This document shows, piece by piece, positions 2 through 53,043 of a stretch of DNA of 55,722 nt. The first letter of the stretch is position 1, and the number at the start of each line of letters is the position of its first letter. The position numbers and the translations under genes are program-made. The DNA is from Candidatus Rokuibacteriota bacterium (lineage in GTDB: Bacteria > Methylomirabilota > Methylomirabilia > Rokubacteriales > CSP1-6): the NCBI GenBank assembly GCA_003221515.1, contig QHSI01000128.1:1-55722 (forward strand). The letters are read 5' to 3'. Below the pieces are notes generated by a model. It searched no databases and had not been told where the DNA came from. It worked only from the letters and a program-made list of their open reading frames with translations.

Positions 2-373
2 CGCCCGGATCTGGTCGAGACGGCGCTCTCGGCGCCTCCAGCCACGATCGCACGTGGGGCGAGCTTCTCGGTGACGGACACCGTGCTCAATCAGGGAGCC
101 GTCGCCGCCGGCGCGTCGACGACACGGTACTATCTCTCGGCGGATCAGCTCAAGGACGGGAGCGACCGCTTGCTCACCGGCGCCCGGGCGGTGCCTGCAC
201 TCGGCCCGTCGGCAACATCCACCGGCACCGTCAGCGTGACGGTGGCGACGAACATGGCGCTCGGTACGTACTACCTGATCGCCTGCGCCGACAACACGAC
301 GACCGTCACCGAGAGCAACGAGACCAACAACTGTCGGGCCTCGGTGACGACCATTCAGGTCACCGTCCCGTAG
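2..373 (+). CDS. CARDB-domain secreted protein, C-terminal fragment
   Basis: The frame is open from the window edge to a TAG at 371-373, so this is the last roughly 123 codons of a longer protein. It begins RPDLVETALSAPP and continues with a glycine/threonine-rich beta-sandwich pattern (GASFSVTDTVLNQG, TTRYYLS, GTYYLIACADN, ESNETNNC). This is the classic CARDB (cell-adhesion-related, bacterial) repeat, an Ig-like fold found in tandem in large exported proteins. The paired cysteines in the ACAD and NNC segments suggest an extracytoplasmic disulfide. The start, signal peptide and any further repeats lie outside the window, so the substrate or partner cannot be inferred. An internal ATG at 71 is inside the domain and is not a plausible start. 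Confidence 0.8.
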   Translation, partial: RPDLVETALSAPPATIARGASFSVTDTVLNQGAVAAGASTTRYYLSADQLKDGSDRLLTGARAVPALGPSATSTGTVSVTVATNMALGTYYLIACADNTTTVTESNETNNCRASVTTIQVTVP

Positions 374-396
374 ACGCTGACGGGGTCTCAGGAGAT

Positions 397-420
397 CGAC
401 GCCGACGTCGGCCGGCGTCG
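397..420. terminator. Hairpin between convergent genes
   Basis: CGACGCCG at 397-404 pairs perfectly with CGGCGTCG at 413-420 across an 8-base loop. It sits between the stop of the CARDB gene and the stop of the convergent enolase-superfamily gene. No T-tract follows on either side, so Rho-independent termination is possible but not proven. Confidence 0.4.
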
Positions 421-444
421 CCGCCGGGATGATCTTCACCGGCG

Positions 445-1560
445 TCAGGTCAGGTAGAAGGGCCGGGCCGCTTCGCGCCGATACGGATACCGCGCGAGAA
501 CGTCGGGATCGGGGTCGGCGCCCAGACCCGGGCCCTCGGGCACGCTGATCGCGCCTCCGCTCCGGCGGATCGGCTCGCCCAGGAGCGGCGCCGCCAGATC
601 CATCGACGGGAATTCGACGTAGGGCACGCCGGGGGTCGAGGCGACCACATGGACCGTCGCGGCCAGCCCGGGGCCGTAGTAGAACGAGTGCGGGACGAAG
701 GTCACGTTGGCCGCGGCCGCGAGCGCGGCGATCTTCTTGGTCTCGAGGATGCCTCCTACCTTCGTGACGCTCGGCTGGACGATGTCGGCCGCGCCGTGGG
801 CGATCAGGTCGCGAAACCCGAACACGGTCGCGTCGTTCTCGCCGGCGGCGATCGGAATCGTGAGGGCCGCGCGAACGCGGGCGAGCCCGGCGTAGTCCTC
901 GGGCGGCCACACGGGCTCCTCGAGCCACCGCAGCTCGAATCGCTCGAGCTGGCGGCCCATGCGGATCGCGTCTTCCACGGACCACGGGCAGTTGGTGTCG
1001 AGCATCAGCTCCACACCCCCGCCGGCGACTTCCCGAGCGCCCGCCACCGACTCGACGTCGATCTGATGAAGCTTGATCGCCGTGTGGCCGAGCACGAGCG
1101 CGGCCGACACGGCCTGGCGGACCTGGGTCGGTGTCTCGTAGCGCAGCAGGCTCGAGTACACGCGGGCCCGCGACTGGCAGAGCCCTCCGAGCAGCTGGTA
1201 GACCGGCACGCCCCGCGCCTTGCCGGCCAGGTCCCAGAGCGCCAGCTCGACGCCGCTCAGGGCCATCATCGCGAGGCCGCGACGCCCCCAGATCATCAGC
1301 GCGCGATGCATGCGATCGACTAGGCTCTCGATCTGCGAGGGGTCCTGACCGACCACGATCGGCGCGAGCGCGTCGTCGATCACGTCGCACACGGCGAGCG
1401 TAGCGCCGTACGCAAAGCTCTCGCCCCATCCGATGAGCCCGTCGTCGGTGGTCACGCGCACGAGGATCTGTTTGCCGGCGCCGGCCGCCCACGTCGAGGG
1501 CGGCGTGGTCGGGCGCAGCGGAATCGCGAGCGGGATCGCGCGGACCTCGGTGACCTTCAC
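445..1560 (-). CDS. Mandelate racemase/muconate lactonizing enzyme family protein
   Basis: This 371-residue protein has the two-part architecture of the enolase superfamily: an N-terminal capping domain to about residue 125, then a TIM-barrel domain. Visible signatures are GWGE near residue 45, the ALWDLAGK helix, IKLHQ at the second-strand lysine position, and three metal ligands in LDTN, EEP and GEN. VPHSF comes later. Members abstract a proton alpha to a carboxylate (racemases, dehydratases, cycloisomerases). The family motif is usually PDVTKVGG at the sixth strand; here it reads PSVTKVGG, so the common Asp is Ser. The substrate cannot be named. The start is GTG, one base past the UbiD stop. 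It is the last gene of a long catabolic operon. Confidence 0.85.
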   Translation of the reverse strand: MKVTEVRAIPLAIPLRPTTPPSTWAAGAGKQILVRVTTDDGLIGWGESFAYGATLAVCDVIDDALAPIVVGQDPSQIESLVDRMHRALMIWGRRGLAMMALSGVELALWDLAGKARGVPVYQLLGGLCQSRARVYSSLLRYETPTQVRQAVSAALVLGHTAIKLHQIDVESVAGAREVAGGGVELMLDTNCPWSVEDAIRMGRQLERFELRWLEEPVWPPEDYAGLARVRAALTIPIAAGENDATVFGFRDLIAHGAADIVQPSVTKVGGILETKKIAALAAAANVTFVPHSFYYGPGLAATVHVVASTPGVPYVEFPSMDLAAPLLGEPIRRSGGAISVPEGPGLGADPDPDVLARYPYRREAARPFYLT

Positions 1561-1561
1561 C

Positions 1562-3052
1562 TCAGAGGTCTCCGAGCCCCAGCTCCTCCCAGCGCTCGCG
1601 CACCCGCGCCTCGTCCTCGGGCGCCGGGCGCACGGTCGGCGGGAACCGCTCGCCGCCCCACGCCTCGCGGCGCTCGAACTTCCACGAGCGCGTGGCGTCG
1701 ATCAGCACCCGGTTCCAGAGGCCCGTGCCGAGCTGTGCCACGTCCCGCTCCTCGAGCGGCGTGCTCGGATCGATCGGCGAGCCGAAGATCCCGGGAAAGA
1801 CCACGATGCCCTCGTGGCCCGCGTTCACCCGGTGGGCGAACGCCCAGTCGACCTGCTCGTAGGAGGACGGATCGATATCCTCCTCGACCACGATGACGTT
1901 CTTGTAGCGGAACTGGGCGGCGCTGGCGCCCCACAGCGCCGCCGCGATCTGCTTGGGCTGGCCCTGGTAGGCCTTCTTGATCTGCACGACGATGTTGACG
2001 CCGTTGGTGATGGGCGGCACGAAGACGTCGCGCACACCCGGAATTCCCGCCGCCGTCAGGATGTTCCAGGCGATCGCGGCGCGCTGCACCGAGGACATCA
2101 CGCTGTTCTCGCTGTAGGAGCCGGGCAGCGTGCCCTCGAGGCAGCCGCGGAAGATCGGCTCGCGCCGGTGCGTGATGCAGGTGATCCGCATCGACGGGCG
2201 CGGCGTCGGGATGTCGGAGACGTAGCCCGTGAACTCGCCGAACGGTCCCTCGGTCTCGTACGTCGCCGGGTCGTCGCTGATGAACCCCTCGATCACGATC
2301 TCGGCGCTGGCCGGGACCTCGAGGTCGACGGTCTCGCAGCGGATCAGCTCGGCGGGCTCGCCGCGATAGGCTCCCATCACGTCCCACTCGCAGACGCCCG
2401 GCGGGATCGGCGAGCCGGCCAGGAACGGCATGATCGGGTCCCAGCCGATCACGCAGGCCACCGGCATCGGCTCCTTGCGCGCCGAATATTTCAGGAAGTG
2501 CTGGCCCCAGTGCTGGCCGCCCTTGATCAGGAGGAAGGGCGTCGTGTTCTTCTGGCCGATCATCCCGCGGTAGATCCCGACGTTCATCACGCGCGTCTCC
2601 GGGTCGCGGGTGACGACCCCGGAGAACGTGTGGATGTACCGCCCGCCCTCGAGGTAGTGCCACCGCGGGACCGGGAACTCCGTCTGGTCGATATCGCGGC
2701 CGCTGATGATCACGTCCTTCACCGATCCCTCGGTGACGAGCCGCGGAGGAATCGTCTCGCGGTTCTTCTTCATGACGTGCTGGACCAGGTCGCCGTTGGA
2801 GACGTCGCGCGGGAACCCGAGCGCCAGGGCGAGACGATCGCGGTTGCCGAGCCCGCTGGCCAGGAGCTTCGTACAGCGCCCGGTCTTGTATCCCGTGATG
2901 TTCTCGAACAGCAAGGCCGGGCCCTTCTTCTCGAGCACGCGGCGCGTGATGGCGCCGAGCTCGCGGTCCCAGTGGACCTCGGCCGTGATCCGCCGGAGCT
3001 CGCCTTCCTTCTCGAGCCGGCCGATCCACTGCCGCATGTCCGTGAAGCTCAT
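1562..3052 (-). CDS. UbiD-family prenyl-FMN-dependent decarboxylase
   Basis: This 496-residue protein has the length and fold signatures of UbiD/FDC-type decarboxylases. It starts MSFTDMRQWIGRLEKEGEL and carries GPALLFENI near residue 45, RWHYLEGGRYIH, NVGIYRGM, GPFGEFTGY and LEGTLPGSYSENS. UbiD enzymes use prenylated FMN to remove or add CO2 on aromatic or alpha,beta-unsaturated acids. The ATG overlaps the stop of the upstream luciferase-like gene as ATGA, implying translational coupling. No UbiX flavin prenyltransferase is visible in the window. The open frame extends far upstream to 3838, but that part has no family similarity. The position behind a CoA ligase, hydratase and dehydrogenase suggests aromatic or unsaturated acid catabolism (inference). 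Confidence 0.88.
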   Translation of the reverse strand: MSFTDMRQWIGRLEKEGELRRITAEVHWDRELGAITRRVLEKKGPALLFENITGYKTGRCTKLLASGLGNRDRLALALGFPRDVSNGDLVQHVMKKNRETIPPRLVTEGSVKDVIISGRDIDQTEFPVPRWHYLEGGRYIHTFSGVVTRDPETRVMNVGIYRGMIGQKNTTPFLLIKGGQHWGQHFLKYSARKEPMPVACVIGWDPIMPFLAGSPIPPGVCEWDVMGAYRGEPAELIRCETVDLEVPASAEIVIEGFISDDPATYETEGPFGEFTGYVSDIPTPRPSMRITCITHRREPIFRGCLEGTLPGSYSENSVMSSVQRAAIAWNILTAAGIPGVRDVFVPPITNGVNIVVQIKKAYQGQPKQIAAALWGASAAQFRYKNVIVVEEDIDPSSYEQVDWAFAHRVNAGHEGIVVFPGIFGSPIDPSTPLEERDVAQLGTGLWNRVLIDATRSWKFERREAWGGERFPPTVRPAPEDEARVRERWEELGLGDL

Positions 3053-4059
3053 CGCCGCGTGACCGCCGGCGCCACCTCGGTCAGGAAGCGCTTGAACTGC
3101 CCCCGCTGGTCCCACGAGCCCAGGCGGAGCGCCATGTGCCCGACCCCGGCCTCGAAGTACGCGCGCAGCTCCTCCGCGCACCGCTTCGGATCGCCGGCCA
3201 CGGTCCACTGCTCGACGAAGCTCGGGCTGAACTTGGCGGTGTAGTAGGTGTCGAGGAACGCCTTCGTCTCCTCGAGCGCCTTCTGGCGGTCCTCGTTGAT
3301 GTTGATGTTGTGGTAGAGCGCGCTTCCGAGCTTCGCCGGGTCGCGGCCCTCCTCGCGCGCCATCGTCGCGATGCGCCCCCACTGCTGGCGGAACTCGCCC
3401 GGCGAGAGCTTGTTGGTCATCCAGCCGTCGGCGTAGCGCGCGATCCGCCGGAACGAGCGCTCGATCACCGCCTCCGAGGCGGACGCGCCGCCCTTCCACG
3501 TGAGGCCGGTCGGGTTGGACGCGATCCACACCGGACACGGTTGCTGCACCGGCGGCGGTTCGAGCGTGACGCGATCGAACGAGTAGAACCGGCCGTGGTG
3601 CGAGACGTTCTTCTCCGCGAAGAGCTTTCGCAAGATCACGATCCCTTCCTCGAGGCGGCCGACACGCTCGGCGGACGGGATGCTCATGACCTGGTGCTCC
3701 GCGGCCTGCGCCGCGTTCGCCTCGCTGGGCCCACCGAGGCACACCGCGAGCCACGTGCGGCCGCCCGAGAGGACGTCGAGGCTCGCCCACTGATGCGCGA
3801 GCATGACCGGGTGGCGATGGACGAAGGTCGCCATGCACCCGACGGCCAGACGCAGCCGCGACGTGACCCCGGCCAGCGCGGACAGCAGCGTCACCGACTC
3901 CAGGCGCGGCTTCGCCAGCAGGCTGTCGCCCGCCCAGGCGGCGTCGAAGATCCCGGAGCGCTCGGCCTCCACGGCGAGCTCCACGAGGTCACTCGCCTTG
4001 ACGGCGCCGAGAACCACGGCGCGATTGGCGAGGATGAGTCCGAACGAGGGCTTGGTCAC
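3049..4059 (-). CDS. LLM-class (luciferase-like) flavin-dependent oxidoreductase
   Basis: This 336-residue TIM-barrel protein belongs to the bacterial luciferase/F420-dependent oxidoreductase superfamily. Typical segments are SFGLILANR at the start, FDAAWAGDSLL, RLRLAVGCMATFVHRHPVMLAHQWASLD, GRTWLAVCLGG, PVWIASNP and RYADGWMTNK. It should bind FMN or F420; the cofactor cannot be decided from sequence by eye. The start is a GTG with GGGAGG upstream. The stop overlaps the UbiD start (ATGA). It is one of three family members in the window (also 23143-24054 and 43876-44886), which are diverged rather than recent copies. A monooxygenase or reductase step in the same pathway as the decarboxylase is likely but unproven. 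Confidence 0.87.
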   Translation of the reverse strand: MTKPSFGLILANRAVVLGAVKASDLVELAVEAERSGIFDAAWAGDSLLAKPRLESVTLLSALAGVTSRLRLAVGCMATFVHRHPVMLAHQWASLDVLSGGRTWLAVCLGGPSEANAAQAAEHQVMSIPSAERVGRLEEGIVILRKLFAEKNVSHHGRFYSFDRVTLEPPPVQQPCPVWIASNPTGLTWKGGASASEAVIERSFRRIARYADGWMTNKLSPGEFRQQWGRIATMAREEGRDPAKLGSALYHNININEDRQKALEETKAFLDTYYTAKFSPSFVEQWTVAGDPKRCAEELRAYFEAGVGHMALRLGSWDQRGQFKRFLTEVAPAVTRR

Positions 4060-4064
4060 GGAGG

Positions 4065-4832
4065 CTACCTCCCGGTGTAGTTCGGCGGCCGCTTCTCGAG
4101 GAACGACGTCACGCCCTCGGCGTAGTCGTGCGTCGAACGCAGCCACGCATACGCCTTGCGCTCCAGCTCGAGGGCGGTCTCGAGCGGCGCCTCCGCCCCC
4201 CGATTGAGCACCATCTTGAGCGTGCGGAGCGCCAGCGGCGCGCGCGCCGCCAGCTCGCCGGTGAGCGCCGCCACCGCCTCGTCGAGCTTGTCGTTGGGGA
4301 CCGCCAGCGTGACGAGCCCCCACGCTTCGGCGCGCTCGGCGCCGATGCGCTGGCCCGTCATCATGAAGAGCTTGCCGCGCGTCATGCCCATGAGCCGCAA
4401 GGCGCGCTGGGTTCCGCCGCTGCCGGGAATCATGCCCAACCTCACCTCGGGGAAGGCGAACTCGGACCGGAGCGTAGCGATCCGGAAGTCGCACGCGACC
4501 GCCAGCTCGAGACCGGCCCCCATCGTATACCCGTCGATCGCCGCGACGACGGGCTTCCGGCAGCGCTCGGCGGCGGTGAGCGTGTCGCCCCAGAGCTCGA
4601 GATCGGCCGGCGCCAGCGTCAGGAACTCGGCGACGTCTCCGCCCGCGCTGAACGCCTTGCCGCCGGCGCCGCGCACCACGACGACCCGCACCGACTCGTC
4701 GGCCTCGAGCCCCGCGAAGATCCCGGGGAACTCGTTGCGCATCGCGACGGTCATCGTGTTCATCTTGGGCTGGCGGTCGATCCAGATCGTCGCCACCGCC
4801 CCGGCCCGCTCGACCCTGAGGAACTCGCTCAT
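4065..4832 (-). CDS. Enoyl-CoA hydratase/isomerase family protein
   Basis: This 255-residue crotonase-fold protein shows the oxyanion-hole and catalytic regions: AFSAGGDVAEF, AIDGYTMGAGLELAVACDFRIAT and FAFPEVRLGMIPGSGGTQRAL. Both glutamates used for water addition in classical hydratases are present (in GLELA and FPEV). It ends with the usual helical segment YAEGVTSFLEKRPPNY. The expected reaction is hydration of trans-2-enoyl-CoA, or a related isomerisation. The ATG at 4832 overlaps the stop of the zinc dehydrogenase gene (ATGA). The upstream CoA ligase in the same operon would supply a CoA thioester. The downstream gap to the luciferase-like gene is 5 bases and holds part of its ribosome binding site. 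Confidence 0.9.
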   Translation of the reverse strand: MSEFLRVERAGAVATIWIDRQPKMNTMTVAMRNEFPGIFAGLEADESVRVVVVRGAGGKAFSAGGDVAEFLTLAPADLELWGDTLTAAERCRKPVVAAIDGYTMGAGLELAVACDFRIATLRSEFAFPEVRLGMIPGSGGTQRALRLMGMTRGKLFMMTGQRIGAERAEAWGLVTLAVPNDKLDEAVAALTGELAARAPLALRTLKMVLNRGAEAPLETALELERKAYAWLRSTHDYAEGVTSFLEKRPPNYTGR

Positions 4833-5863
4833 GAGGGATTCACCAGGAGGACCTTTCCCTTGTTCTTCCGGTCGAGCACGTGCTGCACCGCCGCGCGCGC
4901 GTCCTTCAACGGAAACGCGCGGTCGACGACCGGCGTGAGCCGTCCCTGCACGACGTGGTCGAGCACCGTTTGCAGCTCGAGAATCGATCCGAGGTTGGTG
5001 CCGAGGATCCGGAGGTTCTTCGAGTACACGTGCCGGAGATCGAGGCGGCCCCAGTGGGTGTCGTGTGAGCCGATGGTGACGAGCTTGCCGAGCCGCGTGA
5101 GGGCGTAGGCCGAGCGCTCGAAGGTGTCGCCGCCGATGTGCTCGACGACGACATCCACACCGCGCTTGCCCGACCACTTCTTCGTCTCCTCGACGAAATC
5201 CTGCGTCCGGTAGTTCACGACGTGCTCGGCGCCGAGCGAACGGGCGAACTCGATCTTGTCGTCGGCGCCGACCGTGGTGATGACCCGGGCGCCGCAGAGC
5301 CGCGCGATCTGGATCGCCGCGCTTCCGACGCCGCTGCCCGCGGCCTGAACGAGGACGGTCTGGCCCGGCCTCACCTCGGCCTGGGCCACCAGCGCGTGCC
5401 ACGAGGTGAGCATGGCCAGCGGCACCGCGGCGCCCGCCTCGAAGGCGATCGCCGCGGGGAGCGGCAGGAGGTTCGCCGCCGGCGCCCGCACGAGCTCGGC
5501 GTAGCCGCCGTCCTTGTGGGCGCCGAGATAGCCGTAACGGACGCACACGGTCCGCTCGCCGCGCAGGCAGTACTCGCAGCTGCCGCACGCGAAGCCGGGA
5601 AAGATGATCACGCGCTGGCCGCGCTCCCAGCCCTTCACGCCGGCGCCGAGGGCCTCGATCGTGCCGGTCACCTCGCACCCGTTGACGTGGGGCAGCCCCT
5701 CCGGCGGCGGAAAGCGCCCGTCGAGCAGCAGCATGTCCACGTGGTTGAGCGCGCACGCCTTCACGCGCACCAGCACGTCGGCGGGCCCGAGCGTCGGGTC
5801 GCGGTACTCGTCGTAGAGGATCTTCTCGCTGCCGCCGTGCTCCTTGAAAAACGCGGCCTTCAA
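4829..5863 (-). CDS. Zinc-binding alcohol dehydrogenase / quinone oxidoreductase family (MDR)
   Basis: This 344-residue medium-chain dehydrogenase/reductase has a catalytic-zinc region in CALNHVD and HVNGCEVTGTIEALG. Its structural zinc lobe is CGSCEYCLRGERTVC, and the Rossmann motif is VLVQAAGSGVGSAAIQIA. It oxidises or reduces an alcohol, aldehyde or enoyl substrate with NAD(P). I place the start at a TTG preceded by GGAGG seven bases upstream; the first residues read LKAAFFKEHGG. The TTG overlaps the stop of the CoA ligase (TTGA). Overlaps with both neighbours show a single translationally coupled unit with the ligase and the enoyl-CoA hydratase. Confidence 0.88.
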   Translation of the reverse strand: MKAAFFKEHGGSEKILYDEYRDPTLGPADVLVRVKACALNHVDMLLLDGRFPPPEGLPHVNGCEVTGTIEALGAGVKGWERGQRVIIFPGFACGSCEYCLRGERTVCVRYGYLGAHKDGGYAELVRAPAANLLPLPAAIAFEAGAAVPLAMLTSWHALVAQAEVRPGQTVLVQAAGSGVGSAAIQIARLCGARVITTVGADDKIEFARSLGAEHVVNYRTQDFVEETKKWSGKRGVDVVVEHIGGDTFERSAYALTRLGKLVTIGSHDTHWGRLDLRHVYSKNLRILGTNLGSILELQTVLDHVVQGRLTPVVDRAFPLKDARAAVQHVLDRKNKGKVLLVNPS

Positions 5864-7254
5864 AACGGCACCTCCGTCCGCTCGTCCCGGACGCGCCGGG
5901 CCTTGTGGTCCCACCGCGGGAGCGATCCGGGCTCGCCGATCTCGACGGTGGCCCGGATGCCGAGCCCGGTGCGGAGGTCGGCGGCGAGCCGGGTGCGCAG
6001 GCCGTCGCGCTCGATGAGCGAGAGCGAGGGCGACGGATCGATGCGGATCAGGATGTCGTCGAGACCATCGTGACGGCGGAAGACGATCTGGAACTCGTCG
6101 ACGTCGGCGTGGGGACGCACCAGCTCTTCCACGCGACGCGGGTAGACGATCACGCCACGGATCTTCTTCATGTCGTCGAGCCGCGCGAGCACGCCGCCCT
6201 CGAACGCCACGAGCGTGCGGCCGCACGGGCAGGGGCGATCGGCCCGCTGGACGACGTCGCGGGTGCGGTACCGGATGAGCGGCATCGCCTTCCGGTACAG
6301 ACTCGTGAAGACCAGCTCGCCGCGCTCGCCGGGCCGCACTGGCTGGTCTCGCTCGTCGAGCACCTCGGGGTAGCAGTAGTCCTCGTTGACGTGGGTCAGT
6401 CCGGCCCGCGCGCCGCACTCGAATCCCCAGGCGGCGATCTCGGTGAGCCCCGGCAGGTCGTACGCCTGGGCGCCGAACGCCGCCTCGATCTTCGCCCGGG
6501 TCGCCGGGATCGACGCGCCGGGCTCTCCGGTGTGCCAGGTGATCCGGACCTTCGTGTCCTTCGCGAGGTCGATCCCCTTGCGGGCCGCCGCCTCGGCGAG
6601 GAAGAGCGCGTACGACGGCGTGCAGCCGAGCACCGTGATCGGGTAGGTCAGCAGCGCGTCGATCCGCTGGTCGGTGGAGAGGCCGCCGACCGGGAACACC
6701 AGACACCCGAGGTCCTGCGCCGCGTAAAAGCCGGACCAGTAGCCGATCCACGGGCCGTACGAGAAGGCGGCCATGACCATGTCGGGCCGGCGAACACCGA
6801 ACGCGTGCAGCGCGCGGGCGTAGGAATGATAGAAGCCGTACCAGTCGTCCTTCGTGTCGAGGAACGCGAGCGGACGACCCGTCGTGGCCGAGGTCATGTG
6901 GATGCGGAGCACGTCGTCCATCGGGACGGCCAGCAGGTCGCCCCACGGCGGCGCCGCCGCCTGGTTTTCCTTCAGCTCGTCCTTGGTCGTGAACGGAAGC
7001 TTGTCGAGATCGGCGAGTGTCCGGATCGCCCCCGGCTTGACGCCCGCTGCTTTGAGCTTGCGCCGGTAGAAGGGGCTGTGCGCCGCCGCGTGACTCACCT
7101 GCTCGCGCAGGCGCCGGGCCTGCAGCCGCGTCAACTCGGCGCGGGACGCGCGCTCCAGCCGCGGCTCGAGCGCGGTGCGTGCGGCAGGCCGTCGCGGGGC
7201 TGGGGCGCCGCCGGCCGAGGCGCGCCTACGAAAAGACGCAGCGCGCGCAGTCAT
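5860..7254 (-). CDS. Phenylacetate-CoA ligase family (PaaK-like) acyl-CoA synthetase
   Basis: This is an ANL adenylate-forming enzyme of 464 residues from the ATG. Recognisable parts are HSPFYRRKL, DLDKLPFTTKDELK, the P-loop-like TSATTGRPL, YDLPGLTE in place of the usual YGLTE core, ELVFTSL, LIRYRTRDV, CPCGR and MKKIRGVIVYPRRVEE. The family activates aryl or acyl acids to CoA thioesters with ATP. The first 27 residues (RRRASAGGAPAPRRPAAR region) are encoded by a dispersed repeat. A second copy (47772-47812) lies just upstream of another gene, so translation may really begin later, perhaps at a TTG near 7134. The upstream gene ends 4 bases before this ATG. Confidence 0.85.
   Translation of the reverse strand: MTARAASFRRRASAGGAPAPRRPAARTALEPRLERASRAELTRLQARRLREQVSHAAAHSPFYRRKLKAAGVKPGAIRTLADLDKLPFTTKDELKENQAAAPPWGDLLAVPMDDVLRIHMTSATTGRPLAFLDTKDDWYGFYHSYARALHAFGVRRPDMVMAAFSYGPWIGYWSGFYAAQDLGCLVFPVGGLSTDQRIDALLTYPITVLGCTPSYALFLAEAAARKGIDLAKDTKVRITWHTGEPGASIPATRAKIEAAFGAQAYDLPGLTEIAAWGFECGARAGLTHVNEDYCYPEVLDERDQPVRPGERGELVFTSLYRKAMPLIRYRTRDVVQRADRPCPCGRTLVAFEGGVLARLDDMKKIRGVIVYPRRVEELVRPHADVDEFQIVFRRHDGLDDILIRIDPSPSLSLIERDGLRTRLAADLRTGLGIRATVEIGEPGSLPRWDHKARRVRDERTEVPF
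7183..7224. repeat. Dispersed GC-rich palindromic repeat A, copy 1
   Basis: About 41 bases beginning GGCAGGCCGTCGCGGGG match 47772-47812 in the same orientation with only a few differences; GCCGTCGCGGGGCTG and CGCCGGCCGAGGCGCG are identical. It lies inside the annotated 5' end of the CoA ligase gene. In the second copy the element sits directly before the start codon of a lipoprotein gene. The content is palindrome-rich (CGGCCG, GCGGGGC/GCCCCGC), like REP elements. Confidence 0.7.
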
Positions 7255-7258
7255 TCGT

Positions 7259-7696
7259 TCAGGACGTGAGCAGCTCGGTCATCCGGTTGAAGAACTGGTC
7301 GGCCATCATCTTCGACACGCCGCCCAGCATCCGCTGGCCCACACCGGCGATGAGCCCGCCGATCTGCACGTCGGCGCTGTACGAGACACGCGTGCCGCCC
7401 TCGGCGTCGCTCAGCGTGATCAGCGTGTCCGCGCGTACGAATCCCGGGCCGCCGCTGCCCTCGGCGGCGAGGCGGTAGGAGTCGGGCGCCTTCTTGTCCA
7501 ACAGCCGCACCTTGCCCTCGAAGGTCCCCTTCACCGCCGCGACGCCGATCTTGAGCGTGGCCTTGTACTCGTCGCCGCCGACCAGCTCGAGCTTCTCGCA
7601 GCCGGGAATCGCCTGGCGGAGTATCTCGGGATCGAGGAAGGCGGCCCACACCTTGGACCGCGGCGCCCGCACGTCGTAGGAGCCTTCGAGCTTCAT
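7259..7696 (-). CDS. SRPBCC-family protein, CoxG-like
   Basis: This 145-residue protein matches the CoxG / carbon-monoxide-dehydrogenase subunit G group of the START/SRPBCC hydrophobic-pocket fold. Segments are SYDVRAPRSKVWAAFLDPEILRQAIPGCEKLE, VRLLDKKAPDSYRLAAEG, and a C-terminal helix GVGQRMLGGVSKMMADQFF. Members bind a lipid, quinone or membrane, or help insert oxidoreductases; no CO dehydrogenase subunits are nearby. Here it more likely serves the catabolic operon (inference). The ATG is preceded by AAGGAG and overlaps the aminotransferase stop (ATGA). Confidence 0.82.
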   Translation of the reverse strand: MKLEGSYDVRAPRSKVWAAFLDPEILRQAIPGCEKLELVGGDEYKATLKIGVAAVKGTFEGKVRLLDKKAPDSYRLAAEGSGGPGFVRADTLITLSDAEGGTRVSYSADVQIGGLIAGVGQRMLGGVSKMMADQFFNRMTELLTS

Positions 7697-8910
7697 CCGT
7701 GAGTCTCCTTGGTAGAGAGCCCTCGCAGCGCCGCCGCCATGCGCGCCAGTCCCTCGACGATCAGCGGCTCGCTGGTGGCGTACGACAGGCGCACGTGATC
7801 GTCGGAGCCGAAATCGACGCCCGGCACTACCGCCACCTTGGCCTGCTCGAGCAAGAAGGCGGCGACGCCGACCGATCCCTTGATGGTCGCCGGTCCGTCG
7901 GCGGACCTCCACGTGCGCCCGAACAGGCGCGACACGTTGGGAAACACGTAGAACGCGCCCTTCGGCATGATGCACGACACCCCGGGCAGCTCGTTGAGCC
8001 CCCGCACGATCAGGCGCCGGCGCCGGTCGAACTCGCCCGCCATCTTCGCGACCTCATCTTGGGGACCGACGAGCGCCTCGATCGCGGCCCACTGGGCGAT
8101 CGACGAGGGGTTCGACGTCACCTGGCTCTGGATGTCGGTCATCGCGCGGATGAGCTCGCGCGGCCCGGCCGCGAAGCCGATCCGCCAGCCGGTCATCGCG
8201 TAGGCCTTCGAGCACGTGTTGATCGTGAGGGTCCGCGCCTTGATCTCCGGGCCGAGGCCGGCGATCGACACGTGACGCCCCTCGAAGGTCAGCGCCTCGT
8301 AGCACTCGTCGGAGACGACGAACAGGTTCGCCTCGACCGCGAGCTTCGCCACCGCCGCGATCGCCGCCGGCGAGAACACGGCGCCGGTGGGATTGTTCGG
8401 GCTGTTGAGGACGATCACCTTCGTGCGCGGCGTGACCGCGGCGCGAAGCGTCTCGGGGTCGAGGTCGAACCCGGTCGCCTCTCGCGTCGGCACCGCCACC
8501 GGCACGGCGCCGATGAGCCGCGCCTGCTCCGGGTACGAGACCCAGAACGGGCTCGGCACCAGCACCTCGTCGCCGGGGTTGAGCATCGCGACGGCCAGGT
8601 TGAAGAGCGTGTGCTTGGCGCCGCACGAGACCAGCACGTCGGCCGGCTCGTAGGTCAGGCCGTTGTCGCGCTTGAACTTGGCGCACACCGCCGCCCGCAG
8701 CTCGGGCACGCCGCCGACCTCGGTGTATTTCGTGTGGCCGCGCCGCATCGCCTGGATCGCGGCCTCTTTGATCCGCTCGGGCGTGTCGAAGTCGGGCTCG
8801 CCGGCGCCGAACGAGATCACGTCGACGCCCTGTCGCTTGAGCTCCTTCGCCTTCGCCTGCACGGCGAGCGTCGACGATGGGGCAAGCGTCTTCAGGCGAT
8901 CGGCCAGCAC
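7693..8910 (-). CDS. Class I/II pyridoxal-phosphate aminotransferase (aspartate aminotransferase group)
   Basis: This 405-residue fold-type I aminotransferase is similar to the Ib-type aspartate aminotransferases of many bacteria. Signatures are ISFGAGEPDFDTP (residues 32-44), YTEVGG, NSPNNPTGA around residue 170, SDECYEAL (about 200-207) and the PLP lysine in TCSKAYAMTGWRIGF (Lys about 235). RLSYATS carries the carboxylate-binding Arg. It would exchange the amino group between aspartate or another amino acid and 2-oxoglutarate. It follows coaD by 31 bases and overlaps the CoxG-like gene, so it bridges housekeeping and catabolic genes. Substrate preference (Asp, prephenate or aromatic) cannot be read by eye. 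Confidence 0.9.
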   Translation of the reverse strand: MLADRLKTLAPSSTLAVQAKAKELKRQGVDVISFGAGEPDFDTPERIKEAAIQAMRRGHTKYTEVGGVPELRAAVCAKFKRDNGLTYEPADVLVSCGAKHTLFNLAVAMLNPGDEVLVPSPFWVSYPEQARLIGAVPVAVPTREATGFDLDPETLRAAVTPRTKVIVLNSPNNPTGAVFSPAAIAAVAKLAVEANLFVVSDECYEALTFEGRHVSIAGLGPEIKARTLTINTCSKAYAMTGWRIGFAAGPRELIRAMTDIQSQVTSNPSSIAQWAAIEALVGPQDEVAKMAGEFDRRRRLIVRGLNELPGVSCIMPKGAFYVFPNVSRLFGRTWRSADGPATIKGSVGVAAFLLEQAKVAVVPGVDFGSDDHVRLSYATSEPLIVEGLARMAAALRGLSTKETHG

Positions 8911-8941
8911 GGCGTGGCTCCTTCGGCGGTGGCCCGCCGGG

Positions 8942-9427
8942 TTACTTGGGGGGGTACTTCTCGGCCAGTCGCTTCTCGACGATCGGCGGCACCATGCCGG
9001 CCACCGACGTTCCGAAGCTGGCGACTTCCTTGATCAGGCGCGACGCGATGTACGTGTACTTCTCGTGCGGCATCAGGAACACCGTCTCGACGGTGGACCG
9101 GAGCTTGCGGTTCATGAGCGCCATCTGGAATTCGTACTCGAAATCCGACACGGCGCGGATGCCACGCACGATGCAGGTGGCGCGCTCGCGGGCCACCAGG
9201 TCGATCAGGAGGCCGTCGAACGCGACAATCCGGAAATTGCTCAGATCCGACGTCGCTTCGTCGATCATCTCCAGCCGCTCCTTCACCGTGAAGAGCGGCT
9301 CCTTGGACGGGTTGGCGACGACCGCCACGATCAGCTCGTCGAAGATCTGGAGACTACGCTGGATCACGTCCACGTGCCCGTTGTGGATCGGATCGAACAT
9401 GCCGGGATAGACGGCGCGCTTTGCCAC
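8942..9427 (-). CDS. coaD: Phosphopantetheine adenylyltransferase
   Basis: This 161-residue nucleotidyltransferase carries YPGMFDPIHNGHVDVI at the N terminus (HxGH motif), RGIRAVSDFEYEFQMALMNRKL in the middle, and YIASRLIKEVASFG (the variant of ISSTLIKE). It catalyses the penultimate step of coenzyme A synthesis: 4'-phosphopantetheine plus ATP to dephospho-CoA. The start codon is GTG. It follows rsmD closely, the arrangement seen in many bacteria. Length and motifs are normal. Confidence 0.96.
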   Translation of the reverse strand: MAKRAVYPGMFDPIHNGHVDVIQRSLQIFDELIVAVVANPSKEPLFTVKERLEMIDEATSDLSNFRIVAFDGLLIDLVARERATCIVRGIRAVSDFEYEFQMALMNRKLRSTVETVFLMPHEKYTYIASRLIKEVASFGTSVAGMVPPIVEKRLAEKYPPK

Positions 9428-9437
9428 GACCCGTAAG

Positions 9438-9992
9438 CTACCCTCCGGCTTGAAAGAAAGTCAAGGTCGTCTCCCCGAAACGCCGCTCCCGAAAGGCTCG
9501 CAGGGCGCCGTATTCTTCGCCCGGCTTTCGTTTGGTGAAGTGCTGGGCGACGACGAGCCCGCCGGGCACCAGGAGGTCACCGGCGCCCAGCGCCGCCAGC
9601 GTCTGCTCGACGCCGTCCTCGGCGTACGGCGGATCGAGGAACACGATCTCGAAGCGCTCGCCCAGACCGGCGAGGCGCGTGAGCTCGCGTCCGACGTCGC
9701 CGCGCAGGACGCGCGCGCGGCCGGCCACGCCGAGCTCCCGGACGTTCTGGACCAGGGCGGCCGCGGCGCGGCCGTCGCGCTCCACGAACGTCGTGTGCGC
9801 GGCGCCGCGCGAGAGGGCCTCGAGCCCGACGGCGCCCGCGCCTGCGAAGAGGTCGAGCATGCGGGCGCCGGGCAGCCGGGGCGCCAACGTGTCCATCAGC
9901 GCGGTCCGCACCTGGTCGGCCGTCGGCCTGGTGGTGGCGCCGCGCGGCGTCACCAGCCGCCGGCCCTTCAGTGCTCCGGCGATCACGCGCAT
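9438..9992 (-). CDS. rsmD: 16S rRNA (guanine966-N2)-methyltransferase RsmD
   Basis: This 184-residue Rossmann methyltransferase begins MRVIAGALKGRRLVTPRG and then carries TRPTADQVRTALMDTL, the SAM-binding MLDLFAGAGAVGLEALSRG and the catalytic FLDPPY. It methylates G966 of 16S rRNA in 30S particles. It lies 8 bases after the recG stop and just before coaD. The protein happens to end in Gly-Gly, but it is a folded enzyme and not a candidate proteasome modifier. Confidence 0.95.
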   Translation of the reverse strand: MRVIAGALKGRRLVTPRGATTRPTADQVRTALMDTLAPRLPGARMLDLFAGAGAVGLEALSRGAAHTTFVERDGRAAAALVQNVRELGVAGRARVLRGDVGRELTRLAGLGERFEIVFLDPPYAEDGVEQTLAALGAGDLLVPGGLVVAQHFTKRKPGEEYGALRAFRERRFGETTLTFFQAGG

Positions 9993-10000
9993 GCGCCGCC

Positions 10001-12088
10001 CTACCCGGCCGTCGCCAGCGCGAGCTTGCCGCGCCACCGGGTCAGCAGCGCCTGGCGCAACGGCCGGTGGGCGGGGTCGCTCAGCTCGGGATCGCGGGCG
10101 ACGATGGCGCTGGCGTCCCGCCGCGCGTCTTCCAGGAGGCTCGCGTGACGCAGCAGATCGACCACGCGGAACTCGGGCAGCCCCGACTGGCGCGTGCCGA
10201 AGAACTCGCCCGGACCGCGCAGCTCCAGGTCGGCCTCGGCGATCTTGAAGCCGTCGTTCGTGGCGGTCATCGCGTCGATCCGCCCCTGGGCCTCCTCGCC
10301 GAGGCGGCCGGCCGTGAGCAGGATGCAGTACGACTTCCACTCGCCGCGGCCGACGCGCCCGCGCAGCTGGTGCAGCTGCGAGAGGCCGAAACGCTCGGCG
10401 TGCTCGATCAGCATCACCGACGCGTTCGGCACGTCGATGCCGACCTCGATCACCGTCGTCGAGACCAGGACGTGAACCTCGCCGGCCTTGAACCGGCGCA
10501 TGATCGCGTCCTTGTCCTCGAAGCCGAGCCGCCCGTGCAGCAGCCCGACCGTCAAATCGGGAAAGACCTCGTCGGCCAGATGGCGCGCCATGTCGGTCGC
10601 CGCCTTGAGGTCGAGCGCCTCGGACTCCTCGACCAGCGGGTACACGACGTAGATCTGGCGGCCGCCCGCCACCTGCTCGCGCAGGAACTTGTAGATCGCC
10701 CGCCGCTTCGACTCCAAACGCGCCACCGTGACCACCGGACGGCGCCCCGGCGGGAGCTCGTCGAGGACGGAAACGTCCAGGTCTCCGTAGATGGTGAGGG
10801 CGAGCGTGCGCGGGATCGGCGTCGCCGTCATCACCAGGAGATCGGGATGCTCGCCCTTGCCGCGGAGGCGTGCCCGCTGCTCGACACCGAACCGGTGCTG
10901 CTCGTCGACGACCACGAGCCCGAGACGACGGAACTCGACCGCCTCCTGGACGAGGGCGTGGGTGCCGACCGCGCAGCCGATCTCGCCCCCGGCCAGCGCG
11001 GCGCGCCGGACCGCCCGCTCGCGCGGCTTCAGGGAGGAGGTCAGCAGCGTGACGGGCACGCCGAGCGGCTCGAGGAGCTGGCGGAACGTCATGAAGTGCT
11101 GTTCGGCCAGGATCTCGGTGGGGGCCATGACCGCCGCCTGGTGGCCAGACTCGACCGCGGTCAGGACGGCGAGCGCGGCCACGATCGTCTTGCCCGATCC
11201 GACGTCCCCCTGAAGGAGCCGATGCATCGGGTACGGCGCCGCCATGTCGCGTCGGATCTCGTCCCAGACCCGCTCCTGGGCGCCCGTGAGCTTCCACGGC
11301 AACGCCGCGCGCAGCCGCGCGACCAGGTCGCCGCGCGGATTCATCGCGACGCCGCGGGCGCGAGCGACGCGCGACCGCAAGATCGCGAGCCCGAGCTGGA
11401 GCAACAGCCCCTCGTCGAACGCGATGCGGTGGCGTGCGGCGGCTAGCGCGTCGTCAGTCTCGGGGAAGTGCGCCTCGCGAATCGCCTGCGCCAGGCCGAC
11501 GAGCCCGCGCCGCTGGCGCACGCCGTCGGGCAGCACCTCGGGTAAGGTGGACGCGAACGTGTCGACCAGCCGCCACATGAGCGAGCGAAGCGCGCGTTGC
11601 GGGAGTCCCTCGGTGAGCGAGTACACCGGCACCAGCCGGCCGGTGTGGAGCCGCTCGTCCTCGTCGTTCTCGACGATCTCGTAGTCGGGCTGCTGGAGCA
11701 CTGTCACGCCCTTGTACCGCGCGACACGCCCGTGCAGCACGAGCCGCTGGCCGCGCTTGAGGACGCGAGCCAGGTAACGCCAGCCGAACCAGCTCGCGGT
11801 GGCGTACCCGCTCGGATCCCGCAGCATCACGGTGAACGGCAGCCGTGAGCGGCCGGGCGGCGGCGGGCTCACGCCGACGACGACCCCCGAGCACGTCGCG
11901 GCCACTCCGGGTACGAGCGAGCGGAACGGGGTCAGCCGCGTCCGATCCTCGTGGCGGAGGGGCACGAAGTGGAGGGCGTCCTCGACGGTGCGGAGCCCCT
12001 TGCGCTCGAGCTGGCCCGCACGATGGGGCCCCACGCCCTTGATGAACTGCAGCGGCGTGTGCAGGTCGGGCGCGGAGGTTTGCGTCAC
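10001..12088 (-). CDS. recG: ATP-dependent DNA helicase RecG
   Basis: This is a roughly 695-residue superfamily 2 helicase for branched DNA and stalled forks. It opens with a helix-hairpin-helix-like TPLQFIKGVGPHRAGQL. The OB wedge follows (PFTVMLRDPSGYATASWFG), then Walker A LLQGDVGSGKT, DEQH in VVVDEQHRFG, MTATPIPRTLALTIYGDLD, and the C-terminal motifs HGRLGFEDKDAIM and HQLRGRVGRG. I prefer the GTG at 12088. The longer frame to a GTG at 12151 adds 21 non-conserved residues and would run through the opposite-strand rpmB promoter. Its upstream region is shared with rpmB, divergently. Confidence 0.93.
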   Translation of the reverse strand: MTQTSAPDLHTPLQFIKGVGPHRAGQLERKGLRTVEDALHFVPLRHEDRTRLTPFRSLVPGVAATCSGVVVGVSPPPPGRSRLPFTVMLRDPSGYATASWFGWRYLARVLKRGQRLVLHGRVARYKGVTVLQQPDYEIVENDEDERLHTGRLVPVYSLTEGLPQRALRSLMWRLVDTFASTLPEVLPDGVRQRRGLVGLAQAIREAHFPETDDALAAARHRIAFDEGLLLQLGLAILRSRVARARGVAMNPRGDLVARLRAALPWKLTGAQERVWDEIRRDMAAPYPMHRLLQGDVGSGKTIVAALAVLTAVESGHQAAVMAPTEILAEQHFMTFRQLLEPLGVPVTLLTSSLKPRERAVRRAALAGGEIGCAVGTHALVQEAVEFRRLGLVVVDEQHRFGVEQRARLRGKGEHPDLLVMTATPIPRTLALTIYGDLDVSVLDELPPGRRPVVTVARLESKRRAIYKFLREQVAGGRQIYVVYPLVEESEALDLKAATDMARHLADEVFPDLTVGLLHGRLGFEDKDAIMRRFKAGEVHVLVSTTVIEVGIDVPNASVMLIEHAERFGLSQLHQLRGRVGRGEWKSYCILLTAGRLGEEAQGRIDAMTATNDGFKIAEADLELRGPGEFFGTRQSGLPEFRVVDLLRHASLLEDARRDASAIVARDPELSDPAHRPLRQALLTRWRGKLALATAG

Positions 12089-12108
12089 CTGGAGCCCTGT
12101 GCTATAGC
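12080..12108 (+). promoter_or_regulatory. Sigma70-type promoter for rpmB
   Basis: A -35-like TTGCGT (12080-12085) and a -10 TATAGC (12103-12108) are separated by exactly 17 bases. They lie about 46 bases before the rpmB ATG, giving a predicted transcript start near 12115. The -35 region overlaps the preferred recG start on the other strand, so the two genes may interfere. Confidence 0.55.
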
Positions 12109-12153
12109 TTCCGATTGGTTCGATCGCCGGGAAACCTGGCTCAGGGAGCACTC

Positions 12154-12345
12154 ATGGCTCAGCGATGCGATATCTGCAGCAAGGGTCCTTCGGTCGGTCA
12201 CAAGATCAGCCACGCGCACAAGCTCACCAAGCGGCGCTGGCTGCCGAATCTCGTGTCGATGCGCGCGCTGGTCGACGGCCGGGCTCGACGCCTCCGCGTC
12301 TGCACGCGCTGCCTCAAAGCGGGCAAGGTCACGAAGGTCATTTAA
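12154..12345 (+). CDS. rpmB: 50S ribosomal protein L28
   Basis: This 63-residue protein reads MAQRCDICSKGPSVGHKISHAHK near its start, with the L28 core RRWLPNL and RRLRVCTRC. Two Cys pairs (C5/C8 and C50/C53) form the zinc ribbon, making it the C+ version of L28. It sits in the large ribosomal subunit near the E site. The ATG at 12154 is chosen over the upstream in-frame ATG at 12115 because AGGGAG precedes it and homologues start here. It is a single-gene unit closed by the hairpin at 12354-12378. Confidence 0.96.
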   Translation: MAQRCDICSKGPSVGHKISHAHKLTKRRWLPNLVSMRALVDGRARRLRVCTRCLKAGKVTKVI

Positions 12346-12353
12346 GCACAGCC

Positions 12354-12378
12354 GGGAGGGGGCAGCGCGCCCCCTCCC
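12354..12378. terminator. Bidirectional hairpin between rpmB and the micro-ORFs
   Basis: GGGAGGGGG (12354-12362) pairs with CCCCCTCCC (12370-12378), a perfect 9-bp stem that a C-G pair can extend into the loop. It lies 8 bases after the rpmB stop and also downstream of the minus-strand lysine micro-ORFs, so it can close both transcripts. No poly-T tail follows. Confidence 0.55.
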
Positions 12379-12428
12379 GAGCAGTACCTGGTGGGAGGCC
12401 GCCACCCCCCACCCAGAAACCAGCGTTG

Positions 12429-12461
12429 CTACTTCTTCTTCTTCTTGGCCTTCTTCTTCAT
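12429..12461 (-). CDS. Lysine-rich micro-ORF 2 (10 codons)
   Basis: The frame reads ATG, three AAG, GCC, five AAG, TAG, which is the peptide MKKKAKKKKK. It is far too short for normal gene calling. It is preceded by AGGAGGTGA (12470-12478), a 9-base match to the end of 16S rRNA, eight bases before the ATG. A very similar 12-codon frame lies 51 bases upstream, which looks like a tandem duplication. Eight of ten residues are lysine, all encoded AAG. Possible roles are a ribosome-pausing leader, a cationic micropeptide, or a translation decoy. I do not recognise it as a known family. The case for translation rests on the Shine-Dalgarno sequence and the duplication, not on homology. Confidence 0.5.
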   Translation of the reverse strand: MKKKAKKKKK

Positions 12462-12469
12462 CGAGCGTC

Positions 12470-12478
12470 TCACCTCCT
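12470..12478 (-). promoter_or_regulatory. Strong Shine-Dalgarno of micro-ORF 2
   Basis: AGGAGGTGA on the minus strand, eight bases before the ATG of the 10-codon frame. It is complementary over nine bases to the usual anti-SD end of 16S rRNA, better than nearly every full-length gene in the window. Confidence 0.65.
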
Positions 12479-12512
12479 CTCGTAGCTAGATTCACCGCGT
12501 CGTCGATCCGCC

Positions 12513-12551
12513 CTACTTCTTCTTCTTCTTCGTGGCCTTCTTCTTCGCCAA
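12513..12551 (-). CDS. Lysine-rich micro-ORF 1 (12 codons)
   Basis: The frame reads TTG GCG, three AAG, GCC ACG, five AAG, TAG, giving the peptide MAKKKATKKKKK. AAGGAGGTGA (12557-12566) lies five bases before the TTG, an essentially perfect anti-SD complement at good spacing. That Shine-Dalgarno starts 11 bases after the stop of the AbiEi-like gene, so the frame is probably cotranscribed with it. The shared pattern with the 10-codon frame (three Lys, Ala, five Lys, stop) supports a duplicated functional unit. No known function can be assigned. Confidence 0.5.
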   Translation of the reverse strand: MAKKKATKKKKK

Positions 12552-12556
12552 TTGCG

Positions 12557-12566
12557 TCACCTCCTT
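12557..12566 (-). promoter_or_regulatory. Near-perfect Shine-Dalgarno of micro-ORF 1
   Basis: AAGGAGGTGA on the minus strand, a 10-base complement of the 16S rRNA 3' end. Together with the AGGAGGTGA of the next frame it makes two maximal ribosome-binding sites within 97 bases. Confidence 0.65.
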
Positions 12567-12577
12567 CCGTCGATCGC

Positions 12578-33579: not shown

Positions 33580-33636
33580 CGACGAGGGGGCGTCGCGCCC
33601 CCCAGCCAATGGGGGGTGCGCGGTGCCCCCAATTTT

Positions 33637-33672
33637 CGCCCCCGGGGCCCGTCGACCGGGGGCGTTCTTTCT
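33637..33672 (+). terminator. Hairpin with T-rich tail between mpa and dop (possible attenuator)
   Basis: CGCCCCCGG (33637-33645) pairs perfectly with CCGGGGGCG (33656-33664) over a 10-base loop and is followed by TTCTTTCT. A second hairpin-capable stretch (CCCCCCA and TGGGGGG, about 33598-33616) precedes it. Together they resemble an intrinsic terminator, so expression of dop-prcB-prcA-pafA could be lower than that of mpa, or dop could have its own promoter. Confidence 0.6.
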
Positions 33673-33692
33673 AGCCTTCAGAGAGGACAGCA

Positions 33693-35189: not shown

Positions 35190-35191
35190 CC

Positions 35192-36004: not shown

Positions 36005-36007
36005 ATC

Positions 36008-36700: not shown

Positions 36701-36724
36701 GCCGTGCTAGTCTGAAGCAGGCTC

Positions 36725-53023: not shown

Positions 53024-53043
53024 TGGCTAACCAGGGGGACAGA

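Follow-up and report, generated by a model that had tools for sequence, protein, structure and literature searches.

The carbon sources of Rokubacteria have largely been guessed from genomes, and several characterized systems offer points of comparison for such guesses. In the degradation of 2-furoate and hydroxymethylfurfural (HMF) by HmfABCDE with HmfFG, a coenzyme A (CoA) ligase, a molybdenum hydroxylase that acts on the aryl-CoA, a partner gene of maturation type and the decarboxylase HmfFG work in one pathway, as outlined in the available part of PMC6678421. HmfF, the protein of structure 6H6V, is treated as a UbiD enzyme in the accessible text of PMC8988006. CoxG proteins are described, in the portions at hand of PMC11962113 and PMC13240472, as anchoring or connecting molybdenum and flavin dehydrogenases to the membrane or the quinone pool, and in SAR202, which are uncultured and presumed to degrade recalcitrant organic matter, the paralogues of luciferase-like proteins (LLM, or FMNO) and of the enolase superfamily have expanded (PMC5395668 and PMC6946804, both in excerpt). 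Herein, we describe a block of eight genes at positions 445-8910 of a 55,722-nucleotide contig (QHSI01000128.1, assembly GCA_003221515.1), referred to as the window, which is one whole contig among the 191 of a 5.1 Mb genome that is 95% complete and is a Candidatus Rokubacteria metagenome-assembled genome (MAG). We tentatively propose, giving the proposal somewhat less than an even chance, that this is a lineage-specific, modular catabolic locus of one Rokubacteria family, which lies behind the run recG-rsmD-coaD-aminotransferase, has been shortened by gene loss, and might degrade a (hetero)aromatic or unsaturated acid through CoA intermediates.

The eight open reading frames (ORFs) lie on the minus strand, and the families that an earlier note had named for them from the letters alone were each confirmed by Pfam. 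In the direction of transcription, these are a class I aminotransferase (7693-8910; Aminotran_1_2, 256 bits), a CoxG-like SRPBCC protein of PF06240 (7259-7696; COXG, 103.7 bits, cut-off 22.2), a PaaK-like acyl-CoA ligase (5860-7254; AMP-binding and AMP-binding_C_2), an oxidoreductase of the medium-chain dehydrogenase/reductase (MDR) superfamily, similar to PIG3 and quinone reductases and with a TTG start (4829-5863; ADH_zinc_N, 108 bits), a crotonase-family enoyl-CoA hydratase (4065-4832; ECH_1, 187 bits), an LLM-type flavin or F420 oxidoreductase (3049-4059; Bac_luciferase, 161 bits), a UbiD-family decarboxylase dependent on prenylated flavin mononucleotide (prFMN) (1562-3052; UbiD, 199 bits, with the N and C domains), and a mandelate-racemase-like protein of the enolase superfamily with Ser264 at the position of the usual dyad Asp (445-1560; MR_MLE_C, 209 bits; MR_MLE_N, 85 bits). 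The junctions are as tight as had been claimed, with four 4-base overlaps (ATGA at aminotransferase/CoxG, MDR/crotonase and LLM/UbiD, TTGA at ligase/MDR) and gaps of 4 bases (CoxG/ligase), 5 bases (crotonase/LLM) and 1 base (UbiD/enolase). The aminotransferase follows coaD, the housekeeping gene for pantetheine-phosphate adenylyltransferase (8942-9427, minus strand; TIGR01510, 198 bits, cut-off 103), after 31 bases, and the statement that no visible terminator separates the block from recG-rsmD-coaD also stands. Over both strands, nine terminator-like sites were counted, where shuffled sequence gave 4.0 (sd 2.0). The opposite strand holds six of these; the remaining three, on the operon strand, all fall within coding sequence (rsmD, ligase and MDR) and therefore are not read as terminators. 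No sigma-70-like promoter was found in window positions 100-12700. Among the matches listed, only coaD and UbiD passed curated NCBIfam cut-offs. The nearest broad subfamily models of the LLM (TIGR03619, 141.5 of 166.9 bits) and of the MDR protein (TIGR02824, 248 of 297 bits) were below their cut-offs, so that no specific function can be read from them, and the best matches of the enolase-superfamily protein were far under theirs.

The conservation of the block was followed in 95 genomes of the class, 57 from the family of the window and 38 others, by genome-wise searches with the aminotransferase, CoaD, UbiD, ligase, LLM and MDR proteins and, in the family, with the enolase-superfamily and TAXI proteins, similarity thresholds being set separately for each search. 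Orthologues were accepted at identities of at least 72% for LLM, MDR and ligase and at least 76% for UbiD, counting the genome of the window and leaving out paralogues (LLM proteins up to 50% identical, UbiD proteins up to 53% and a single MDR protein at 67%). UbiD orthologues were found in 37 genomes, all of the family, with none of at least 76% in the 38 others; those of the ligase (37 genomes, 36 in the family), the LLM (44, 43 in the family) and the MDR protein (40, 39 in the family) each had the same single outsider, G092, and an enolase-superfamily match (E<=1e-100, at least 55% identity) was present in 34 of the 57 family genomes. Gene order was counted in 57 fetched stretches of relatives (L033-L069 and L153-L172), the window's own genome, the stretches L070-L072 (UbiD paralogues of 40-53%) and the ligase genes on other contigs of G042, G086 and G087 being excluded; gene borders there come from a home-made GC3 caller, and family scans were run for the named genes only. 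Because related genomes are not independent, genera are given beside genomes. The orders MDR-crotonase-LLM (25 genomes, 12 genera) and LLM-UbiD (25 genomes, 13 genera) were the most widespread, and the four genes MDR-crotonase-LLM-UbiD shared a single stretch, in this order, in 19 genomes (10 genera); UbiD-enolase was seen in 18 genomes (8 genera), CoxG-MDR-crotonase-LLM-UbiD in 14 (7 genera), and coaD-aminotransferase-CoxG-ligase-MDR-crotonase-LLM in 12 (5 genera). Two or more of the 11 genes were present on 45 stretches, and only three of these were flipped or out of order (G082, G088, G090). The ligase and LLM families are very numerous, with 99 and 97 first-look candidates in the window's genome (a loose sign), and thus finding both at a single site means little on its own; it is the order kept over genera that makes the set credible as more than chance. 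Synteny of the block holds up, although what is conserved is not this exact group of eight. The seven genes from CoxG to the enolase-superfamily gene form a conserved, modular and loose set of the window's family.

The aminotransferase, which had been counted as part of the catabolic operon, does not belong to it. Among the 82 genomes of the class with both genes, it lies within 300 bases of coaD in 79; in the remaining three the two are 308 bases apart (G006) or on separate contigs (G020, G073). The 79 cases include 44 genomes without a UbiD orthologue, and outside the window's family the adjacency is kept in 29 of the 31 genomes having both. The spacing from the aminotransferase to CoxG, measured in 22 fetched stretches, is 10 bases or less in two of them and exceeds 1 kb in ten. 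Since the adjacency to coaD is conserved and this spacing is not, the catabolic unit ends at CoxG. The candidacy of the aminotransferase as a pathway enzyme was rejected on the conserved adjacency; the gene belongs to a housekeeping run, recG-rsmD-coaD-aminotransferase, whose rsmD-like (9438-9998) and recG-like (10001-12151) members, both on the minus strand, are identified as ORFs and by synteny, under the names of the earlier note and with no family scan. In several genera, a CLP1-type (polynucleotide-kinase-like) NTPase gene was observed between the aminotransferase and CoxG (L048 1060-1917, L060 631-1644 and others), the L048 copy being the one scanned for its family.

Relatives hold up to seven or more extra genes inside the block. 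Between MDR and crotonase lies a second acyl-CoA synthetase (ACS2, about 515 aa), whose best solved relative is 4-chlorobenzoate-CoA ligase, and between LLM and UbiD lie a VOC protein, a TAXI-type TRAP binding protein (TIGR02122, 169 bits, cut-off 84), amidohydrolases and a TRAP fused permease (TIGR02123, 638 bits, cut-off 321). Within the genus of the window, ACS2 is one stop-free open frame in G049 (533 aa) and G053 (556 aa), is cut by contig ends in G052, is reduced in length in G050 and G051, where MDR and crotonase are 653 and 826 bases apart, is nearly gone in G054 (105 bases), and is absent between MDR and crotonase in G048 and the window. The TAXI gene was found in none of the nine genus genomes, even at a looser E<=1e-40, and the family-wide search, which served as the control, found it in 28 of 57 genomes (E<=1e-80), with at least 67% identity in 25 of the 28 matches. 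The locus in the window thus appears to be a version shortened by gene loss. A compact, overlapping operon can result in part from such loss, to which the MDR/crotonase overlap is at least partly due, and therefore the tight junctions of one genome should not be read as a full pathway. The seven genes remaining in the window's genome are nonetheless under purifying selection and not decaying, as dN/dS against G048 was 0.065-0.153 compared with 0.118 for coaD; the value for the enolase-superfamily gene was computed on the longer intact piece of the G048 gene. This G048 gene, in the nearest relative (L033 892-2002), is split into two frames at about position 1404, and the break is either a real frameshift or an assembly error.

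A link to molybdenum hydroxylases emerged from the neighbors of the ligase. In G092, from another family of the same order, the large, medium and small subunit genes of a molybdenum hydroxylase are followed by CoxG, the ligase and, 54 bases on, MDR, with 4-base overlaps at large/medium, small/CoxG and CoxG/ligase according to the GC3 gene calls; the large subunit resembles CO dehydrogenase and quinoline 2-oxidoreductase and, more distantly, chains of 4-hydroxybenzoyl-CoA reductase. Three further genomes (G079, G040 and G041) have a ligase outside the coaD locus that adjoins molybdenum hydroxylase genes, and about 1.5 kb upstream of the G083 ligase, with one ORF between, there is a match to a small subunit. 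Molybdenum subunits also lie between the TAXI and TRAP genes in the main locus of three genera (g13, g14, g21). This neighborhood, as in furoate degradation, favors an aryl- or heteroaryl-CoA intermediate, and the CoxG protein of the window is probably the membrane or quinone partner of an oxidoreductase, by analogy with its described relatives.

The catalytic residues of most of the encoded proteins are kept. UbiD reached 294 bits against TIGR00148 (cut-off 245), with three Pfam domains above cut-off; R162, E268 and E273, the residues of the E-R-E network named for this family in the accessible text of PMC8988006, were invariant in 14 aligned sequences, and the N-x4-R and EGPFGE motifs were present in 33 of 33. 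A ubiX gene, which had been suggested as something to look for in the genome, is indeed found on another contig, above curated cut-offs (NF004685, 239 bits against 188; TIGR00421, 225 against 109). A second, distant UbiD (about 29-31% identical) was observed near that of the operon in three relatives (L066 6111-7409 in G083, L062 and L065). Named records with a UbiD at least 79% identical are six Candidatus Rokubacteria/Rokuibacteriota MAGs and three Xanthobacteraceae MAGs, and among at least 79 loci, UbiD proteins of 64-82% identity outside Rokubacteria came from MAGs of Xanthobacteraceae and Betaproteobacteria and from one Pseudonocardia (L074-L076, L080, L081, L088, L124). The flanks of these seven loci, which are short in L074 and L076, held no match of at least 45% to LLM, ligase, MDR, crotonase or CoxG. 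Downstream of UbiD, L080 carries genes for an OMPdecase-family protein, a HAD hydrolase, an aldehyde dehydrogenase and an ABC transporter, and L075 a nitrile hydratase alpha chain gene. In the Betaproteobacteria MAGs of L080 (8454-13146) and L088 (7378-11485), UbiD proteins of the same subfamily have, as encoded neighbors, an aldehyde dehydrogenase and a protein of the OMPdecase/HUMPS family, in differing arrangements. A substrate was sought from these relatives (L075, L080, L082, L088) and the attempt given up, as the scanned neighbors (OMPdecase/HUMPS-like proteins, aldehyde dehydrogenase, amidohydrolase, nitrile hydratase alpha chain, branched-chain-type ABC transporter and MFS) differ and indicate no common substrate.

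Crotonases rely on two catalytic Glu residues, and ligases of the PaaK type share a C-terminal Lys motif. Both Glu motifs were present in 25 of 25 crotonase sequences, the best solved relative being 3-hydroxypropionyl-CoA dehydratase, and the Lys motif in all 15 ligases, 14 of which have the P-loop TSATTGRP; the best solved relatives of the ligase are 2-hydroxyisobutyryl-CoA synthetase and phenylacetate-CoA ligase. For the LLM protein, no curated F420-LLM model was passed among the matches listed. The top PDB folds for its structural model (pLDDT 83) were F420-dependent dehydrogenases (TM about 0.76), but a luciferase and flavin mononucleotide (FMN) enzymes (MsuD, SfnG) scored nearly as high, and the fold therefore does not decide the cofactor. 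CofD, the sole F420-biosynthesis gene tested, is present in the genome (TIGR01819, 309 bits, cut-off 257), and Rokubacteria are listed among the phyla encoding F420 biosynthesis in the consulted part of PMC8498797. Two more luciferase-like proteins are encoded in the window, at 23143-24054 (minus strand) and 43876-44886 (plus strand), about 26% and 23% identical to that of the operon.

Two enzymes depart from the textbook sites of their superfamilies. The MDR protein had been taken for a zinc dehydrogenase with an oxidative role, and this identity was rejected on the ligand positions. Its structural four-Cys zinc site is kept in 21 of 21 orthologues, whereas at the catalytic zinc positions of 1RJW, whose ligands we take to be Cys, His and Cys, it has Asn, Cys and a non-ligand residue. 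The first alcohol dehydrogenase-type motif occurs in none of the 21 orthologues and GCE stands at the second in all 21; for the third position, the window protein alone was read. The catalytic ligands are likewise missing in 2EIH, the nearest solved chain. Because the MDR protein has lost these ligands, zinc-free hydride transfer, as in quinone and enoyl reductases, is likelier than zinc-dependent alcohol oxidation, which appears doubtful for this protein. The His-Asp dyad is the mark of the mandelate-racemase subgroup of the enolase superfamily. In the window's protein, K163-x-H165, D188, E214, E241, S264, K267 and H291 were invariant in 16 aligned sequences; the metal-ligand acids D188, E214 and E241 are thus present, and the top 50 folds were all enolase-superfamily entries. 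The dyad is not complete, however, as His291 is kept and Ser264 occupies the Asp position in 16 of 16. Among three solved relatives, this position is Asp in 5OLC and 3BJS and Ala in 3RCY, and therefore departures from Asp are not unique.

We infer a substrate class and possible roles for the enzymes as follows, listed without implying an order of reactions. The PaaK-like ligase would convert a (hetero)aromatic or alpha,beta-unsaturated carboxylic acid, which in relatives the TAXI-type TRAP transporter would import, to its CoA thioester, and the acyl-CoA might be hydroxylated, in relatives, by the molybdenum hydroxylase. CoxG would dock an oxidoreductase on the membrane or the quinone pool, the crotonase would hydrate (or dehydrate) an intermediate, the MDR protein without its catalytic zinc site may move hydride to or from an enone or enoyl-CoA, and the LLM enzyme might provide one flavin or F420 redox step. 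UbiD would take off a carboxyl group with prFMN, and the enolase-superfamily protein may carry out alpha-proton chemistry on a free carboxylate; the aminotransferase would take no part. Of the earlier interpretation, the conserved block of catabolic type behind recG-rsmD-coaD is retained, without the aminotransferase and the zinc-dependent oxidation. A bolder version, in which the locus is a new, Rokubacteria-confined aryl-CoA route with a PaaK-like ligase, a CoxG-docked oxidoreductase that in some relatives would be a molybdenum hydroxylase, an LLM enzyme dependent on F420 or flavin, a prFMN decarboxylase and an enolase-superfamily enzyme of unusual chemistry, the latter because its dyad reads His-Ser, strikes us as unlikely.

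Several observations weigh against the proposed catabolic locus. The break-up of the set in relatives, which had been named as a refutation, is partly seen, with UbiD, ligase, MDR, LLM or the enolase-superfamily gene absent or elsewhere in some. G038 has no UbiD orthologue and its LLM is followed directly by the enolase-superfamily gene, G091 retains only CoxG-LLM-enolase, also with no UbiD orthologue, in G064 and G065 the coaD locus holds CoxG-enolase, with the other genes placed elsewhere, G040, G041, G079 and others carry their ligase at a different site, and UbiD occurs without an LLM match in G044 and G058. Such losses and splits mean that the seven genes need not share one substrate. Most compared genomes are fragmented MAGs, in which absence at a locus is often a contig end. 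The closest UbiD proteins outside Rokubacteria keep other neighbors. The 55.7 kb window contains no relative of TAXI, TRAP or the second synthetase, and no molybdenum hydroxylase, for which the rest of the genome was not searched; among relatives, the sequence fetched for G088, G090 and G064 gave no molybdenum match on the upstream side of the ligase, and the only one in G058 is about 7 kb from the ligase. It is conceivable that separate modules (CoxG/ligase/MDR, crotonase-LLM and UbiD-enolase, with or without TRAP) merely share the locus, each with its own substrate, and that co-location reflects regulation or a hot spot. The split or reduced loci of G064, G065, G038 and G091, the four genomes in which molybdenum hydroxylase genes adjoin a ligase outside the coaD locus, and the unit LLM-VOC-TAXI-TRAP on the other strand in G088 and G090 speak for this. 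We consider it rather unlikely, as MDR-crotonase-LLM-UbiD keeps its order on one stretch across 10 genera.

The best solved relatives of the ligase and the crotonase would also suit a reductive hydroxy-acid module, in which the ligase activates a hydroxy acid, the crotonase dehydrates it and the MDR protein reduces the enoyl-CoA, on the model of the steps from 3-hydroxypropionate to propionyl-CoA, with UbiD, LLM and the enolase-superfamily protein as accessories. The missing catalytic zinc site and a weak match of the MDR protein to an acryloyl-CoA reductase model (165 bits, cut-off 500) agree with such a role. However, these matches are far from equivalog level, the recurring molybdenum hydroxylase neighbors of the ligase fit an aryl-CoA better, and UbiD is left unexplained; we regard this module as improbable. 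Still less probable is that the locus is a decaying remnant which, with its transporter and second ligase gone, forms no working pathway in the genus. The graded loss of ACS2, the absence of TAXI throughout the genus and the broken enolase frame in G048 would suit decay, and the constraint on all seven genes, close to that on coaD, and the kept active-site residues argue against it. As to the single eight-gene route first proposed, with aminotransferase and zinc oxidation included, its one strand and tight junctions remain, but the tie of the aminotransferase to coaD in genomes without UbiD and outside the family, its variable distance from CoxG, the lost zinc ligands of the MDR protein and the failure of all eight genes to stay together in relatives make that route very improbable.

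Other features were observed in the window. A CARDB-domain ORF (71-373, plus strand) lies near the contig end, convergent with the operon, and upstream of the recG-like gene an ORF at 12578-13627 (minus strand) has a weak match to AbiEi_2, a type IV antitoxin/regulator family (29.6 bits, cut-off 21). At 31768-38080 (plus strand), a proteasome-type AAA ATPase gene precedes a pair of Pup-ligase-family genes (33693-35189 and 36725-38080), between which lie two ORFs that had no family scan; this is likely a bacterial Pup-proteasome cluster in Rokubacteria. Two adjoining family 1 solute-binding protein genes with a one-base overlap (51689-54336, plus strand) are possibly a tandem duplication.

The locus is nearly confined to one Rokubacteria family, made of known enzyme families and, among the matches listed, without a description in the open-access literature, in agreement with the claim that no described pathway has this exact set. 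An order-keeping set that recurs beside molybdenum hydroxylases would provide a short list of enzymes for one Rokubacteria carbon source, and offers a UbiD subfamily and an enolase-superfamily group as enzymes to assign. As in the 2-furoate/HMF pathway, ligase and molybdenum hydroxylase genes adjoin in several Rokubacteria; unlike that pathway, the window has no molybdenum furoyl-CoA dehydrogenase subunit, such subunits being present in some relatives' loci, and it adds crotonase, MDR, LLM and enolase-superfamily genes. The CoxG-like protein shares PF06240 with CoxG-type partners, but no molybdenum enzyme stands beside it in the window. The window holds the same two superfamilies, LLM and enolase, that are expanded in SAR202; there, however, the expansions are genome-wide and of paralogues, not this gene set, and the term UbiD does not occur in PMC6946804. 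The ligase shares its family and C-terminal Lys motif with PaaK ligases and 2-hydroxyisobutyryl-CoA synthetase, yet reaches 277-280 bits against PaaK cut-offs of 646 (TIGR02155, 277 bits) and 700. Finally, the window's UbiD shares a full-length three-domain match and the E-R-E residues with the decarboxylases 7PDA, PA0254 and E. coli UbiD, and is closer to 7PDA (236 bits) than to HmfF (6H6V, 179 bits); unlike these known enzymes, it belongs to a subfamily of its own, in which it is 80-96% identical to ten aligned Rokubacteria orthologues.

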